Source: a virus. From it: a stretch of DNA of 23,480 nucleotides. Made by a program: the position numbers and the translations under genes. This document shows, in pieces, positions 5,608-14,855 of this stretch. The notes beneath the pieces were generated by a model. That model did not search any database. It saw nothing but the letters and a program-made list of their open reading frames with translations, and was not told the origin of the DNA. Position 1 is the stretch's first letter. The number at the start of each line of letters is the position of its first letter. The DNA lies in the IMG/VR virus record IMGVR_UViG_3300036795_000434, positions 1 through 23,480 of that record, one strand, 5' to 3'.

Positions 5608-7143
5608 ATGAACACCGCCCTCGCGCCCGACGCGCTGAAGAAGTCGTTTGCGGACGCCATGTCCCGCCCCAGCGAAGACATCGCCCGCACCATCCTCGCC
5701 CAGGCCGGCGTCGATCCGGACCGGCTGGAGAAGTCGATCTCCACCGCCACCGGCCTCGTCGCCTTCGACCTGCAGGCGCCGGCCAAGAACCTCTATCCGG
5801 CCGCGACGCCGCTGCGGAACCGCGTCCCGCGCGTCCCCGGCGCCGGCGGCACGGCCACCAACTGGCGCCAGGTCTCCAGCCTGATCGGCTCCGGCTACGA
5901 CGCCATCGGCTGGGTCGCAGAAGGCCAGCGCGCCGGCCAGATGAGCTACACCACGGCCACCAAGTCCGCCTCCTACGTCACCCTCGGCGAGGAGGACTCG
6001 GTCACCTTCGAGGCCATCAACGCCGCCATCGGCTTCGAGGACATCCAGGCCACCATGGCCATGCGCCTGCTGCAGAAGACCATGCTGAAGGAGGAGATGG
6101 CGATCCTCGCCGGCAACACCTCGCTGGCGCTCGGCACCCCCTCGGCGCCGACCCTCGCCGCCGCCGGCTCCGGCGCCACGCTGCCGGCCGCCACCTATTC
6201 GGTGATCGTGGTCGCCCTCACCCTCGAAGGCTACCGCAACTCCTCGGTCGCCGCCGGCGTCGCCACCTCGAAGACGGTGACGGGCGCCGACGGCAAGACC
6301 TTCGCCATCAACGGCGGCTCTTCGATGAAGTCGTCGAACACGACCCAGGCCGTCACCCTCGGCCAGACCCTCTCGGCTACGGTGACTCCCATCCAGGGCG
6401 CCGTCGCCTACGCCTGGTACGTCGGCACGGCCGGCAGCGAGACGCTGCAGGCGATCACCTCTCTGAACTCGGCCACCTTCGCAGCCGCGCTCGGCTCGGG
6501 CCAGGCCGCGACCTCGATCACGGCGGACAGCTCCACCAACAGCCTCGGCTACGACGGGCTCCTGACCACCGCGCTGAAGTCCGCCAGCAACGCCTACGTC
6601 AAGACGCTGGCCACCGGCGCGGCCGGCGCCGGCACTGCGCTCACGGCGTCCGGCCGCGGCTCGGTCACCGAGATCGACCAGATGCTCGAGAGCATGTGGG
6701 ACAGCTACCAGGTCTCGCCGACGGTGCTGTTCGTCAACAGCCAGGAGCTGCGCAACATCACCACCAAGGTGCTGTCTTCCGGCTCGGGCCCGCTGCTGCA
6801 ATACCACCAGGACGCCGACAGCGGCGCCTACCAGCTCGACGCCGGCGGCACCATCGCCACCTACTACAACCCGTTCCTGCTCGATGGCGGCCTGCGCATC
6901 CCGGTGAAGATCCACCCGTTCGTGCCGCCCGGCACGCTGCTCGCCTACGCCGAGACCCTGCCGGCCCAGTACCAGTCGAGCGAGGTGCCGAACGTCGCCG
7001 AGGTAAAGTGCCGCCAGGACTACTACGCCATCGACTGGCCGCCGGTGACCCGCCAGCGCCAGAAGGGCGTCTACGTCGAGGAAGTCCTGGCCGTCTACGC
7101 GCCCTTCGCCATGGGCGTGATCACCAACATCGCCAACGGCTGA
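5608..7143 (+). CDS. Major capsid protein with an inserted Ig-like domain
   Basis: This 511-aa protein is the shell subunit, placed directly after the protease. Residues about 55-175 and 312-511 read like an HK97-fold capsid protein, for example the YVTLGEEDSVTFEAINAA region, the LLQKTMLKEEMAILAGN helix and the late QDYYAIDWPPVTRQRQKGVY strand. Between them, residues about 176-310 form a Thr/Ser/Ala/Gly-rich beta segment (ATYSVIVVALTLEGY, then AYAWYVGTAGSETLQAI). It looks like an immunoglobulin-type or I-domain insertion and begins right after the GNTSLALG turn. Such insertions often stabilise the shell or decorate its surface. The ATG has a GAAGGAG site at about 5591-5597. Confidence 0.9.
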   Translation: MNTALAPDALKKSFADAMSRPSEDIARTILAQAGVDPDRLEKSISTATGLVAFDLQAPAKNLYPAATPLRNRVPRVPGAGGTATNWRQVSSLIGSGYDAIGWVAEGQRAGQMSYTTATKSASYVTLGEEDSVTFEAINAAIGFEDIQATMAMRLLQKTMLKEEMAILAGNTSLALGTPSAPTLAAAGSGATLPAATYSVIVVALTLEGYRNSSVAAGVATSKTVTGADGKTFAINGGSSMKSSNTTQAVTLGQTLSATVTPIQGAVAYAWYVGTAGSETLQAITSLNSATFAAALGSGQAATSITADSSTNSLGYDGLLTTALKSASNAYVKTLATGAAGAGTALTASGRGSVTEIDQMLESMWDSYQVSPTVLFVNSQELRNITTKVLSSGSGPLLQYHQDADSGAYQLDAGGTIATYYNPFLLDGGLRIPVKIHPFVPPGTLLAYAETLPAQYQSSEVPNVAEVKCRQDYYAIDWPPVTRQRQKGVYVEEVLAVYAPFAMGVITNIANG

Positions 7144-7150
7144 CGCTCGG

Positions 7151-7183
7151 GCTGGCGGCCCCGGACGCCCCGGGGCTGTCAGC
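7151..7183. terminator. Putative bidirectional terminator hairpin
   Basis: A perfect seven-base stem GCCCCGG/CCGGGGC (7158-7164 and 7170-7176) with a five-base loop is extended by an outer GCTG/CAGC pair (7151-7154 and 7180-7183). It sits between the stop of the capsid gene and the stop of the convergent minus-strand gene, which suits a shared terminator. There is no U-tract. Confidence 0.5.
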
Positions 7184-7811
7184 CGCGCCCTGCCCAGTAG
7201 ACGCGGCACTCGCACTTCGACCAGCCGGCCGGGCCGAGCCCGAGCTGGACGTTGGAAAAGCTGACTGTCTGCCCGGGATCGAGCCGCTCATAGACGATCC
7301 CCTTCACCTTCCCGAGCTGCGTGCCGGAATCGCCGCGCAGAGCGCAGTAGATGTGAATGTCCCGGAAGTAGCCGCGGCCGCTGTTGTGGATCGTACCCGA
7401 CAGCAGGAGCACTGACTGCAGGCTGACGCGGGGCCGGAAGAACCCCGGGCGGGTCGTGACGATCGAGTTCGTGGTGTCGCAGGAGATGTTGCTCAACTGC
7501 AGGTCATCCAGGTCGCCGGTCGGGGCGGCGCCGTCGTTGGGCCGGGCCGGCACGGACGGGCTCGCCGGCCGCGGCGGCGCTATCCGCGGTGCGACTTCCT
7601 TGGCCAACCTGCCGCTGGCGTACTCGGCCACCGGGAACGGGACGAACAGCTGCATGAGCGCCGGGACGGCGACGAAGATCGCCAGGAAGACACCGAACGC
7701 ACGCCAGCGGGTGGCGACGACCGGCCAGCTGCGCACCGGGCGAAACACGAAGAACAGCGCGACGGCCCAGGCGAGCGGCCACGCGAGGATCATGAAGGCG
7801 ACAAGCAGCAT
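7179..7811 (-). CDS. Membrane-anchored protein with a C-terminal FxLYD-like domain
   Basis: This 210-aa protein has two hydrophobic helices (residues about 1-23 and 39-58), a proline/alanine-rich linker (about 73-97) and a beta-rich domain. The pattern SGTIHNSGRGYFRDIHIYCA, then LGKVKGIV and LDPGQTVSFSNV resembles the FxLYD fold, which usually lies outside the cytoplasmic membrane. Four cysteines (C111, C156, C200, C202) could form disulfides. It starts with ATG 14 bases after the stop of the SHOCT protein gene and surely shares its transcript. Its strand is opposite to the late genes, so it is a moron unit. No function is assigned; a role in envelope modification or phage exclusion is possible but untested. 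Confidence 0.75.
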   Translation of the reverse strand: MLLVAFMILAWPLAWAVALFFVFRPVRSWPVVATRWRAFGVFLAIFVAVPALMQLFVPFPVAEYASGRLAKEVAPRIAPPRPASPSVPARPNDGAAPTGDLDDLQLSNISCDTTNSIVTTRPGFFRPRVSLQSVLLLSGTIHNSGRGYFRDIHIYCALRGDSGTQLGKVKGIVYERLDPGQTVSFSNVQLGLGPAGWSKCECRVYWAGRG

Positions 7812-7825
7812 TCGACGCGAAACCC

Positions 7826-8635
7826 CTATCCGTTCGAGAGCAGCTTGGCCTTCTGCGCGGTGAACTCTTCCTCGCTCAGGGCGCCCGCTTGGCGAAGCGC
7901 CCAGAGCTTGCCCAGCGCGTCGGCGCGGCCGGCGTCGCCTCCGCCGACGGCCTGCCGCTTGGCGAGAATGTCCGTCAGATAGGCGTGGAACGCGTCGGCG
8001 TCGTTCACCGCCTGGGTCACATGCGGGCTCTGCAACGCCTCGCCCACCGCCGTCGCGGCGCGGAAGAAGTTGATCGCATAGACCGGCGTCACGGGATCGC
8101 TGACGGCGATTTTCAAGGTCAGGTCGGTCAACGTCGAGATCTGCAGCGTCGGCGACTCGATCGCCTTCAACAGCGCGCGCTCCTCGAAATAGGTGTCCTG
8201 GAAGAAGAATGGCGAGTGCGGCTGGTCGGTGCGCAGCGCGACCGTCGCGCCGTCCTTGACGACCTCGACCGAGACCACCGCGGCGAAGTCGTACGACTTC
8301 ACTTCGGGGATGCGGCCCAGCGCCAGGTTCTGCTGGGCGAAGCTGATGGCGATGAAGCTGTTGTCGAAGTACGAAAAAGCGGTGCGGTCCCAGTCGGCAT
8401 AGCGTCGGCGGAAGTCGTCCAGAGGTGAGCGCTGCGGCGCCGTCGCCACGGGGCTGACCGGGGACGGCGCGGCGATTGGACTGCCGGGAAGCTGCGGCTG
8501 GAGCGCGCTGCCTGCCGCGGGTCCCTTCGCGGCGCCGCGCGCGATCGCCCGCACCGCGAAAACGGCGCCGAGAAACAAGAGCACGAGCGGCAGGGCGACA
8601 AACCCGTCCATGGCGAACAGCGCGAGCCAGTTCAT
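7826..8635 (-). CDS. Membrane-anchored protein with a C-terminal SHOCT domain
   Basis: This 269-aa protein has one N-terminal membrane helix (residues about 9-30, VALPLVLLFLGAVFAVRAIA) and a Pro/Ala/Ser-rich linker. The middle domain includes SYFDNSFIAISFAQQNLALG, VVSVEVVKDG and a run of beta strands. It ends with a classical SHOCT motif (ALGKLWALRQAGALSEEEFT). The central part resembles proteins that place a PH-like or membrane-sensing domain next to SHOCT. The ATG at 8635 is preferred because it puts the membrane helix at the N-terminus. A GTG at 8671 would add twelve arginine-rich residues. It is the first gene of a two-gene minus-strand unit. Function unknown. Confidence 0.78.
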   Translation of the reverse strand: MNWLALFAMDGFVALPLVLLFLGAVFAVRAIARGAAKGPAAGSALQPQLPGSPIAAPSPVSPVATAPQRSPLDDFRRRYADWDRTAFSYFDNSFIAISFAQQNLALGRIPEVKSYDFAAVVSVEVVKDGATVALRTDQPHSPFFFQDTYFEERALLKAIESPTLQISTLTDLTLKIAVSDPVTPVYAINFFRAATAVGEALQSPHVTQAVNDADAFHAYLTDILAKRQAVGGGDAGRADALGKLWALRQAGALSEEEFTAQKAKLLSNG

Positions 8636-8708
8636 CGACGGCCCCCGTCGGCCTCGGCGACGATCATGCACCCCCCAGACTCCGCCGCGTCGAAGCGGGC
8701 AGGAGCTT

Positions 8709-12091: not shown

Positions 12092-12105
12092 GTCGACGGG
12101 CTTGC

Positions 12106-12116
12106 CTGCAGGTTCT
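12106..12116. repeat. 11-bp direct repeat, left copy (CTGCAGGTTCT)
   Basis: The same eleven bases recur at 14949-14959, just upstream of the tape measure. Together the two copies flank the secreted-protein gene and the insertion sequence. Confidence 0.6.
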
Positions 12117-12164
12117 CTCTATGTTCTATTCTCAATGCCGAGCCGGCATCTTGGGAGGGGACGC

Positions 12165-12779
12165 TTGAGCAGGAAAAGATCTTCCGGCGCGCTTTGGGCA
12201 GCCATCTTGGCGTCCTCGCTGCTCACCGGCGTGGCGCTGGCGAAGCCGGCGGTCATCAATAACGGTCCGTTCGGGATATCTATGGGCGAGCCTCTCGCGG
12301 ATCTGGGTAAGACTGTTCCACAGCCTGAGTTGCTTGGCGTCTATCTAGTTGTCCACCCGCCGAAACCGAGCCCCGCGCTTCCGAGAGTGGGCGTCATGGC
12401 GTTTCCGTCGACGGGCGTTTGCAGGGTCGTTGGCGCCGCCGCCGTGATTGAAGACGCCCGCGGCACGTCGGCTCGCCAGCAAGCCGACCAGCTGGCGGCT
12501 CTCCTTGAGCAAAAATACGGGTCTCCGAATAAAACAGACGAGTGCGATGATGAAGATGGTTGCCGATCGCTATGGGTAGATGATGTCTACGATGGTCATG
12601 CCAGGTATCAGTATCAGTGGAACTTACAGGATAGCCACCGCCCGGACGGGATAGTTACCATCGTGGTCAAGGTGATGGCGGACGATGCGCTTCGGTCCTA
12701 TCCCGCCGTGAGCTATTACTTCGCAAACAACCCTGCCTGCGAAGCGGCCGTCAGCGCGGCAAACGGCGCCGCCCTCTAG
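12165..12779 (+). CDS. Secreted hypothetical protein (moron gene)
   Basis: This 204-aa protein begins with TTG at 12165, behind GGGAGGGG at 12153-12160. The start gives a proper signal peptide: basic SRKRSS, a hydrophobic core WAAILASSLLTGVALA, and probable cleavage before KPAV. The mature part has four to five cysteines (CRVVG, then TDECDDEDGCRS, and NNPACEA), so it is probably disulfide-bonded in the periplasm. It ends at 12779, just before the insertion sequence. The second half is less GC-rich than its neighbours, suggesting separate origin. No family is recognised. A possible promoter, TTGCCT (12102) with TATTCT (12127), has a long spacer and is weak. Confidence 0.75.
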   Translation: MSRKRSSGALWAAILASSLLTGVALAKPAVINNGPFGISMGEPLADLGKTVPQPELLGVYLVVHPPKPSPALPRVGVMAFPSTGVCRVVGAAAVIEDARGTSARQQADQLAALLEQKYGSPNKTDECDDEDGCRSLWVDDVYDGHARYQYQWNLQDSHRPDGIVTIVVKVMADDALRSYPAVSYYFANNPACEAAVSAANGAAL

Positions 12780-12787
12780 ATACAAAG
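12780..12787. repeat. Likely target-site duplication, left (ATACAAAG)
   Basis: The eight bases before the left terminal repeat, ATACAAAG, reappear after the right one as ATACCAAAG with one extra C (14856-14864). IS1595-family elements make 8-bp duplications. The difference is a one-base indel. Confidence 0.6.
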
Positions 12788-12810
12788 GGGACCTATATAC
12801 GAGCTTGACC
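12788..12810. repeat. Left inverted terminal repeat of the IS
   Basis: It begins GGGACCTATATACGAG, and the outer 16 bases are an exact inverted match to the right end. GACC at the inner end is also shared; three of 23 bases differ. Confidence 0.95.
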
Positions 12811-12833
12811 CAAGCCCTTGGCTGAGGTAGTAT
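12805..12833 (+). promoter_or_regulatory. Transposase promoter with -35 in the left terminal repeat
   Basis: TTGACC (12805-12810) and TAGTAT (12828-12833) are separated by 17 bases, the ideal sigma-70 spacing. The transposase ATG lies 25 bases downstream of the -10. The -35 forms part of the left terminal repeat, so transposase binding there could repress its own gene. Confidence 0.6.
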
Positions 12834-12836
12834 TCG

Positions 12837-12854
12837 CTTGTCAAAAAGGACAAG
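12837..12854 (+). promoter_or_regulatory. Hairpin overlapping the transposase ribosome-binding site
   Basis: CTTGTC and GACAAG (12837-12842, 12849-12854) pair around AAAAAG. The Shine-Dalgarno AAGGA (12846-12850) falls in the loop and first stem bases, eight bases before the ATG at 12859. It could limit translation, or be a binding site; this is inference. Confidence 0.45.
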
Positions 12855-12858
12855 TGAG

Positions 12859-13770
12859 ATGGCGGAATTTAACAGCCTCTTTGAAATGATGAACGCGGTC
12901 CCGGATGAGGATGCCGCCATCGCTCACTTCACGGCGATCCGCTGGAAGAACGGAGCGTTCTGTCCTTACTGCGGATCGACGAAAATCTACCACTTCAGCG
13001 ATCACAAGACCCACAAGTGCGGAGATTGCCGCCAGCGTTTCTCGATCAAGGTCGGCACCGTCTTTGAGGATAGCAAAATCCCGCTCCGGAAGTGGCTTCT
13101 GGCGATCTGGCTCATTACATCCCACAAGAAGGGTATCGCCAGCACCCAACTCGCCCGTGACATTCAGGTCACGCAAAAGACGGCATGGTTCATGCTTCAC
13201 CGTCTTCGCCATGCCGCGATGACGAAGTCGTTCAACGCGCCGCTCTCCGGCTCGATGGAGGCAGATGAAACTTTCGTGGGCGGCAAGGAGTCGAACAAGC
13301 ATGCGTCCAAGCGCTTGCACAAAGGCCGTGGCGGCGTCGGCAAGGCTATCGTCATGGGCCTGCTAGAGCGCGGCGGCGAGCTGCGCGCCGGAACGATTGA
13401 GAATGTGAAGGCGGAGACCCTTCAGCACATCGTGCGGTCGCATGTCGCGCCCGGCGCGAACCTCTACACCGACGAAGCCAGGGGTTATCGCGGCCTAGAG
13501 GGAGAGTATCACCACCATACGGTGAACCACGGCGCGGGCGAGAACGTCCGCCACTACCACGCCCACACCAATTCGATTGAGAGTGCCTGGGCGCTGCTGA
13601 AGCGCCAGATCATCGGCATTCATCACTGGGTGAGCCCGAAGCACCTTTTCCGCTATGTCGATGAGATGTCCTGGCGCTACAACCGTCGCGAAGTGGCGGA
13701 GGGGGCTCGCGTGGACGCGCTGATCGCGGGGTCGGACGGACGGCTCACGTATAAGGCGCTCATCGCATGA
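12859..13770 (+). CDS. IS1595-family transposase (ISXO2-like)
   Basis: This 303-aa transposase has an N-terminal zinc ribbon (C35 and C38 in CPYCGS, C54 and C57 in CGDC). A helix-turn-helix region follows (STQLARDIQVTQKTAWFMLH). The DDE-type core is D136 in MEADETFVGG, D205 in YTDEARGY and N238 in HTNSIESAW, the DDN pattern of ISXO2-like enzymes. A late YNRRE motif is also present. All key residues are there, so it is probably active. ATG at 12859 is chosen because of the AAGGA site; an in-frame TTG at 12838 would add seven residues. Its stop overlaps the next gene's ATG (ATGA). Confidence 0.95.
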   Translation: MAEFNSLFEMMNAVPDEDAAIAHFTAIRWKNGAFCPYCGSTKIYHFSDHKTHKCGDCRQRFSIKVGTVFEDSKIPLRKWLLAIWLITSHKKGIASTQLARDIQVTQKTAWFMLHRLRHAAMTKSFNAPLSGSMEADETFVGGKESNKHASKRLHKGRGGVGKAIVMGLLERGGELRAGTIENVKAETLQHIVRSHVAPGANLYTDEARGYRGLEGEYHHHTVNHGAGENVRHYHAHTNSIESAWALLKRQIIGIHHWVSPKHLFRYVDEMSWRYNRREVAEGARVDALIAGSDGRLTYKALIA

Positions 13771-13982
13771 CGAAGCGCGGCGAGAACACTGCTCCCAAGC
13801 CCCTTGAGGAATTGTCATTTGGTGAGGCGCTGGCGCGCTTGATCCAAACCGATCCGAGGGAGCTACAGCAGGCCTATGAGCAAGCCCGCAAGGCGGAGGC
13901 AGAGGCGCAACGCTTCATCGAGGAGCGAAAGGCGAGCATCGGCAGGGGGGCCCGCCGATCAACAGGACGATTCCGTCCTTGA
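13767..13982 (+). CDS. IS passenger gene 1, small hypothetical protein
   Basis: This 71-aa protein overlaps the transposase stop by four bases (ATGA), so translation is coupled. The pattern is an N-terminal PLEELSFGEALARLIQTDP, then a charged helix (AEAEAQRFIEERKASIGRGA) and a basic end GRFRP. I associate such short proteins with IS1595-type elements, but with no known function. Lying between the transposase and the third gene, it may regulate or assist transposition, or be part of a two-gene cargo. Confidence 0.75.
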   Translation: MTKRGENTAPKPLEELSFGEALARLIQTDPRELQQAYEQARKAEAEAQRFIEERKASIGRGARRSTGRFRP

Positions 13983-13986
13983 TTTC

Positions 13987-14832
13987 ATGTACCACGACGC
14001 TCGCCGCGTCGGGTCCTTCCTTGCGCAGTTCGATCCTTCGGGCCACCTCCAAGGCATCAAGGAGTCGGATGCGGTAAGCGCCTCCCGCAAACCGGAAATT
14101 TCTCTTAGGGCCGGCATCTCAATCCCCGGGCTACCTCCTACGGGCGAGGGACCGGAAGCCAGTGTTGGCTTCACGCGCAGCGCGAGCGAGGCTGGCCACC
14201 AGGGCAGCGAACGGGCGTACGACCCCTATTGGGCGAACGCCCGCACGTTTCTCGATTTTGTGGAGGAGCGCGGCCTTCTGAGGCGCGATCTTGCGACGGC
14301 AACGCTCGGTGACATCGTCATGATGGCGGGCACGTTGAGCATACTCGATTTGCGAGTGCTCAAGGCTGTCTGGGAATCCCCGCTCGTGACGCACTTCGCC
14401 GGCCTGGCGAGCGAGAGCAATACCAATCCAGTGGCCAATCTGATTGGCTTAGAAGCGCTCCGCATCATGCCGCACACAGTCCAGGGTACGATGCGGAGCC
14501 CTCAGGAAGAGACGGCCTGGATGATGCTGGATGAGCCGAGCCTAGTCGGAAATGCCAGCGACTTCATGCTTAAGCACGGTGCCCAGATCAGCGGCGCATG
14601 GCGAGTGGTCGGCGTTCTGGACGCGCGGCCGGAGCCGACGGTGCTGCAAGAACTTCCGCAGATGGACATTCCCGGCAATAACTTCATGGTCGCCGCCATC
14701 GCTCAGAACAACAACATTCTTGCGGCGGTCGCGGCGACGCTGGCGCCGTTAGCGCGCTTTGTCATGGGCCGTCCCGGCAACGCCTACGGTCTCACGCCGC
14801 TTTTGATCTTCCGCGCCGTCTCAGAACGCTAA
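13987..14832 (+). CDS. IS passenger gene 2, DUF6414-like protein
   Basis: The listed reading (281 aa) begins at ATG 13987 with MYHDARRVGSFLAQFD. An in-frame ATG at 13876 would add 37 arginine-rich residues that overlap the previous gene. The residues just before 13987 (DSVLDF) fit a typical N-terminus of such proteins, so the true start remains unclear. The N-terminal pattern (D.F/Y.D..RV.SFLAQ.D..G) and the central helical and beta parts recall DUF6414, a family of unknown function. The remaining length shows LLRRDLATATLGDIVMMAGT and a late VAAIAQNNNILAAVAATLAP hydrophobic segment. The TAA abuts the right terminal repeat, so the gene was captured inside the element. Confidence 0.7.
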   Translation: MYHDARRVGSFLAQFDPSGHLQGIKESDAVSASRKPEISLRAGISIPGLPPTGEGPEASVGFTRSASEAGHQGSERAYDPYWANARTFLDFVEERGLLRRDLATATLGDIVMMAGTLSILDLRVLKAVWESPLVTHFAGLASESNTNPVANLIGLEALRIMPHTVQGTMRSPQEETAWMMLDEPSLVGNASDFMLKHGAQISGAWRVVGVLDARPEPTVLQELPQMDIPGNNFMVAAIAQNNNILAAVAATLAPLARFVMGRPGNAYGLTPLLIFRAVSER

Positions 14833-14855
14833 GGTCGCACTCGTATATAGGTCCC
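14833..14855. repeat. Right inverted terminal repeat of the IS
   Basis: It ends CTCGTATATAGGTCCC, the exact inverse of the left outer 16 bases, and starts right after the stop codon of passenger gene 2. Confidence 0.95.

Follow-up and report, generated by a model that had tools for sequence, protein, structure and literature searches.

Elements of the IS1595 family that carry passenger genes form a named class, the transporter IS (tIS), which includes MTnSag1/tISSag10 and tISCpe8 (Siguier et al. 2009 in PMC3129680, PMC5704250). A tIS combines an IS1595 transposase with ∼25-bp terminal repeats, 8-bp target duplications and passengers located between the transposase gene and the right end, and the passengers described there confer lincomycin resistance (PMC3129680, PMC5704250). 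The element analysed here shares this design, with a target duplication that agrees at six of eight positions, and differs in its cargo, a phage-type two-gene module whose first gene is fused to a transposase-coupled leader. A preliminary description had placed an IS1595-family element with two passengers at positions 12,788–14,855 of the window (the whole stretch of viral DNA analysed, 23,480 bp), and its coordinates and anatomy are confirmed. Its emphasis on cargo in so small an IS, as a hint of an undescribed role, is overstated, IS1595 elements with passengers being the named tIS class (PMC3129680, PMC5704250).

The larger passenger protein is homologous over most of its length to DUF6414 (PF19952) and to phrog_9699 and phrog_22777, but the obligatory overlapping small partner lies outside those definitions and the window protein falls below the Pfam cut-off. 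In phage lambda, the exclusion genes rexAB lie downstream of cI. Stand-alone relatives of the module resemble RexAB in that they lie directly downstream of a repressor gene on the same strand, where expression in the lysogen is expected, and the likeness is one of position alone. In sister IS1595 elements, this cargo slot is taken by restriction-modification systems and the defence-candidate families PDC-S05, S13 and S22, to none of which the DUF6414-like module has a match. A literature search found no paper on DUF6414, and in the open literature none on IS1595 elements with defence cargo, although Siguier et al. 2009 may already list part of the passengers.

Results

An intact transporter IS in a siphophage genome

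The window is a complete IMG/VR entry with siphophage genes for terminase, portal, tape measure and tail tip; the ORF at 5608–7143 occupies the slot expected for the major capsid protein, and its product shares 41% identity with a hypothetical protein from Brevundimonas phage Strzyga. The insertion has the upstream tail region on one side and the tape-measure gene on the other (Table 1). Its inverted arms are 82% complementary over 28 nt, and their perfect outer 16 nt read GGGACCTATATACGAG and CTCGTATATAGGTCCC. The flanking 8-mers, ATACAAAG and ATACCAAA, are identical at six of eight positions, with one extra C also fitting, and the target duplication is therefore degenerate, compared with eight of eight in many relatives. 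The transposase ORF is uninterrupted from TTG 12838, or from ATG 12859 with a well-spaced AAGGA, to its stop at 13770, and its product matches PF12762 (E 7.7e-43), an N-terminal zinc-ribbon domain (PF12760, E 1.1e-11) and NF033547 (E 1.3e-62, 211 bits versus a cut-off of 75). The locus thus has the ISXO2-like DDE transposase with N-terminal zinc ribbon, the terminal inverted repeats of about 25 bp and, in its two further ORFs, the passengers between transposase and right repeat that characterize IS1595/tIS elements, and it is an intact tIS. The start of the 71-aa ORF overlaps the transposase stop as ATGA at 13767, and the DUF6414-like gene ends within the imperfect extension of the right repeat, its stop codon 7 nt short of the perfect core; both contacts had been noticed in the preliminary description.

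Table 1. Features of the IS1595-family element and its flanks (window coordinates).
Feature	Position	Strand	Remarks
Left target-site flank ATACAAAG	12780–12787	.	degenerate target-site duplication (TSD), 6/8 match to right flank
Left terminal inverted repeat	12788–12815	+	28 nt; outer 16 nt perfect; IR 17/20
IS1595-family transposase	12838–13770	+	PF12762, NF033547; likely start ATG 12859
71-aa chimeric ORF	13767–13982	+	ATGA-coupled to transposase
Generic IS1595 leader segment LEELSFGEALARLIQTDPREL	13803–13865	+	HMM from DinD-type leaders only, E 3.3e-5
Module tail SIGRGARRSTGRFRP	13935–13979	+	common to stand-alone phage small proteins
DUF6414-like protein, 318 aa	13876–14832	+	+1 frame relative to small ORF; phrog_9699 E 3.1e-44
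Right terminal inverted repeat	14828–14855	-	imperfect part contains stop TAA 14830–14832
Right target-site flank ATACCAAA	14856–14863	.	compared with left flank, 6/8

Searches of viral contigs revealed neither a second copy of the exact window element nor the exact GGGACCTATATACGAG elsewhere, and a search for an empty insertion site in related phages, made with a tape-measure query, recovered no relative. The absence of a second exact copy, the six-of-eight target duplication and the origin of the record as a metagenomic viral contig are what would be expected of an assembly chimera or a decayed element. However, this explanation is hardly credible given that all three ORFs are intact, that the outer repeat ends are perfect and that the gene order is repeated in two independent genomes (L013 and L003). 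The latter also answer the question, raised in the preliminary description, of whether the trio of transposase, leader and DUF6414-like gene is unique to this copy. Three elements of this type were found among the matches listed, of which one besides that of the window is intact: the L013 element has all three genes, terminal repeats and a 7/8 TSD. In the L003 element the same three genes are present, the DUF6414-like cargo is cut short and followed by IS3-type ORFs (L003:3323–4533), and a right repeat was sought and not found.

Immediately left of the window element, an ORF at 12105–12779 encodes a protein that begins like a signal peptide and matches no PHROG. Both this ORF and the IS lie in the region preceding the tape-measure gene, which is where the DUF6414 module is found in other phages (L083, L084 and L090).

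A leader coupled to the transposase precedes unlike cargo

Relatives of the transposase were collected by a scan of genome contigs, which yielded 80 loci with ∼41–72% identity; since the survey comprises the best 80 matches per collection, proportions drawn from it are not population estimates. Within the alphaproteobacterial clade, almost every ORF overlapping the transposase stop begins with one segment, approximately LDMPFDEALERFIxTDPKEL. This leader occurs as a stand-alone ORF of ∼57–73 aa or as the N-terminus of a larger protein, and it is found fused to cargo as unlike as Bro-N/DinD-like proteins, P63C, RhuM and Dam methylase. An HMM trained only on leaders fused to DinD-like (Bro-N) proteins was searched against 22,672 six-frame ORFs. 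It matched leaders ahead of P63C (E 2e-10), RhuM (2e-9) and Dam (4e-7), leaders ahead of PLD-like and wHTH-type cargo, and those ahead of DUF6414 cargo (5e-10, 4e-6 and 3e-5, the last being the window ORF at 3.3e-5). The leader probably keeps whatever cargo follows the transposase translated, and it may possibly serve as a tether.

At one locus (L009:5976–6176) the leader ORF lies 908 nt after the transposase and near the right repeat; two genes on the opposite strand, one of them encoding an IrrE/M78 peptidase, intervene. In distant phyla (L077, L180, L209, L215 and L219), a short ORF approximating FxxFxxLAKKIVxVPKxEL follows the transposase stop and is possibly the same leader; the HMM gave no support for this.

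The cargo is a two-gene module that also stands alone in prophages

The label ‘DUF6414-like’ proposed earlier is borne out by the relatives of the window protein, 21 of 23 of which match PF19952 at E≤0.1 (best E 1e-11), but not by the window protein taken alone, which scores 12.6 bits against a gathering cut-off of 25. Its best PHROG match is phrog_9699 (E 3.1e-44), with phrog_22777 also matched, both without assigned function. Homologs were found in 12 phage records, and an alignment-based search extended these to 55 viral loci, where a single-sequence pattern search for relatives of the protein (P0003) had found none. All 55 loci lack a transposase. The gene is rare in alphaproteobacterial genomes, being present in 2 of 289 in a class-wide sample and in 6 of 298 and 1 of 249 in two orders, and two of eight matches in the sampled genomes are IS-linked. 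The DUF6414-like gene is therefore largely what the preliminary description had named as grounds for abandoning its proposal, a stand-alone gene unlinked to IS1595, and the leader half of the 71-aa ORF is unaffected by this. That the stand-alone copies are derivatives which lost the transposase but retained the terminal repeats was considered and rejected, no CCTATATAC-type ends being present around those in genomes.

At each of the 55 viral loci, one of which ends at a contig edge, a small ORF is open in the +1 frame relative to the cargo gene, and it stops at a TGA that overlaps a conserved Asp codon of the DUF6414-like gene. In stand-alone copies the second gene starts at ATG or GTG, mostly 12 codons before a conserved DF and with a purine-rich SD-like sequence upstream, and the small protein is charged and has a conserved tail approximating RGARxTxHRFxL. 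For alphaproteobacterial-type copies, mean identity over this tail region is 73% in the small protein's own frame, versus 23% in the cargo frame and 22% in the third. Hence the small protein is real and selected in its own frame, and the notion that its tail is a by-product of the overlapping cargo frame was rejected. Programmed +1 frameshifting from the small ORF into the DUF6414 ORF was also considered, prompted by a zero-frame stop that is always TGA just before the conserved DF, and is unnecessary for stand-alone copies, which have their own start codon and SD-like sequence. In the window copy, where the nearest start lies 35 codons upstream, such frameshifting may occur.

The C-terminal tail of the 71-aa ORF (RGARRSxxRFR) belongs to this stand-alone module. 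Since the small protein of the module is real and selected, and the tail is common to both, the 71-aa ORF is a chimera of an N-terminal IS1595 leader half and the small-protein tail. We have found no earlier description of such a chimeric ORF or of the stand-alone module. A module with a degraded IS1595-type leader and no transposase is present in a prophage (L088:1121–1336) and in a chromosome (L224:1305–1533); this weaker evidence suggests that a captured module can outlive its IS.

At all eight prophage loci tested, a phage CI/HTH repressor gene is located immediately upstream of the module on the same strand, while other stand-alone copies adjoin an integrase gene or lie in tail operons behind the tail assembly chaperone. 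The RexAB-type arrangement of two genes downstream of cI on the same strand is therefore seen in the stand-alone relatives, the window copy being IS-borne. Lysogeny regulators or accessory genes unrelated to defence would also fit a position beside cI. Near one stand-alone DUF6414-like gene ends a gene for a GNAT-like acetyltransferase, possibly of toxin–antitoxin (TA) type (L226:2516–3010, reverse complement).

The window protein and a prophage homolog, modelled with AlphaFold (mean pLDDT 74 and 73), have a common C-terminal beta-rich core. In a VIA comparison both models gave OB-fold chains as top matches (RPA, AsnRS, MCM and YgiW) with best Z scores of 6.9 and 7.5, both below 8, and the OB-fold may therefore be just a common arrangement. 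Foldseek searches of the PDB and BFVD gave no match at E≤0.001, and the protein has no sequence relative in the PDB. We tentatively assign it a predicted OB-fold-like C-terminal core.

Sister elements exchange cargo behind one type of transposase

Terminal repeats and target duplications located the ends of 76 elements with confidence among the loci listed, mostly 2–4 kb in size, and representative cargo was annotated with Pfam and PADLOC. The slot occupied by the DUF6414-like module holds restriction-modification and other genes in sister elements: a D12 methylase (Dam) with a PD-(D/E)XK nuclease, an N6/N4 MTase, an MvaI/BcnI REase, an N6 MTase with a type I specificity subunit and GmrSD-HNH. 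It also holds RhuM (PDC-S05), Bro-N/DinD-like (PDC-S13) and KilA-N (PDC-S22) proteins, PADLOC PDC-S families that are defence candidates rather than proven systems, and P63C and DUF3800. A maximum-likelihood tree of 59 transposases requires at least 25 changes of cargo label, where the minimum possible is 11 and the mean of shuffled labels 42.7; for example, the transposase closest to that of L003 (DUF6414 cargo) is the one of L005 (DinD cargo; SH-aLRT 99). Two identical cargo-bearing elements of 2906 bp (L018 and L019, 3949–6854 in each) occupy two sites in one Sphingobium genome, with a perfect 8-bp TSD at one and 6/8 at the other, and the whole unit including its cargo therefore moves. Sister elements with defence-type cargo in one slot suggest a family of tiny cargo shuttles.

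Discussion

The explanation that we moderately favour is that the window element is an IS1595 tIS that captured a prophage accessory module for exclusion or defence and moves it between replicons. Repeats and transposase enclose the coupled leader ORF and a cargo slot, which in this copy holds a two-gene module otherwise resident, free of any transposase, in prophages; the small protein of that module has been joined in frame to the generic leader. The module itself would be a lysogen-expressed accessory system for superinfection exclusion or abortive defence, in which the larger protein may sense or bind nucleic acid through its OB-fold-like domain and the small protein may act as its partner or regulator. 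The IS would carry the module from replicon to replicon, with expression supplied by transposase read-through and ATGA coupling. By analogy, the role of the module is probably exclusion or defence, which is the most likely reading because of the position downstream of CI and the restriction and defence-candidate cargo of sister elements. A PADLOC search with the 71-aa and DUF6414-like proteins gave no match at E≤1.

The main alternative is a toxin–antitoxin pair, in which the small protein is a neutralizer made ahead of the DUF6414-like protein, the latter targets nucleic acid or translation, and the two together stabilize the IS or prophage. The order of the genes, their strictly conserved overlap, the charged small protein with its conserved tail and the distribution on mobile elements would all suit such a pair. 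However, profile searches gave no toxin or antitoxin family match, the alignment has no evident catalytic signature and plain TA pairs are not typically CI-adjacent, and we consider this reading rather unlikely. It is improbable that the module is an ordinary prophage accessory pair, for lysogeny regulation or nucleic-acid housekeeping, that has no defence role and was picked up by chance. A location beside cI or in tail operons and PHROGs without assigned function accord with such a pair, but restriction-modification and defence-candidate cargo recurs in the slot of sister elements, which therefore does not look random.

Transposition control, target choice and host defence had all been put forward in the preliminary description, and host defence is the best supported of the three. 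Control of transposition or of target choice by the passengers is similarly improbable. In its favour, the leader of many elements is coupled to the transposase and conserved in sequence despite different cargo. Against it, cargo has been exchanged 25 times or more behind a transposase that was retained, and the module occurs without a transposase at all 55 viral loci. This leaves the leader as the sole candidate for transposition control, and such a role could belong to the leader half of the 71-aa ORF. For the DUF6414-like protein a role in transposition or target choice is unlikely, because none of its 55 viral homologs has a transposase and just two of eight genome matches are IS-linked.

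More broadly, and with less confidence than in the capture of an accessory module, we propose that a widespread branch of IS1595 elements may be modular shuttles for defence or addiction cargo. A short leader domain, coupled to the transposase, would mark the cargo slot and be fused in frame to the first gene, tying cargo expression, and perhaps location, to the transposase, and in that slot the small protein and its DUF6414 partner would form an unrecognized prophage exclusion system. If so, very small transposons would transfer restriction-modification systems and accessory modules of phages among bacteria and phages, cargo being exchanged repeatedly behind a single transposase. The cargo slot would then be a place to seek defence genes, like defence islands and prophage hot spots, and DUF6414 and many uncharacterized small overlapping phage genes would gain a candidate function.

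Elsewhere in the window, two minus-strand ORFs (210 and 281 aa, within 7179–8671) lie amid the plus-strand structural genes and resemble host-derived accessory genes.
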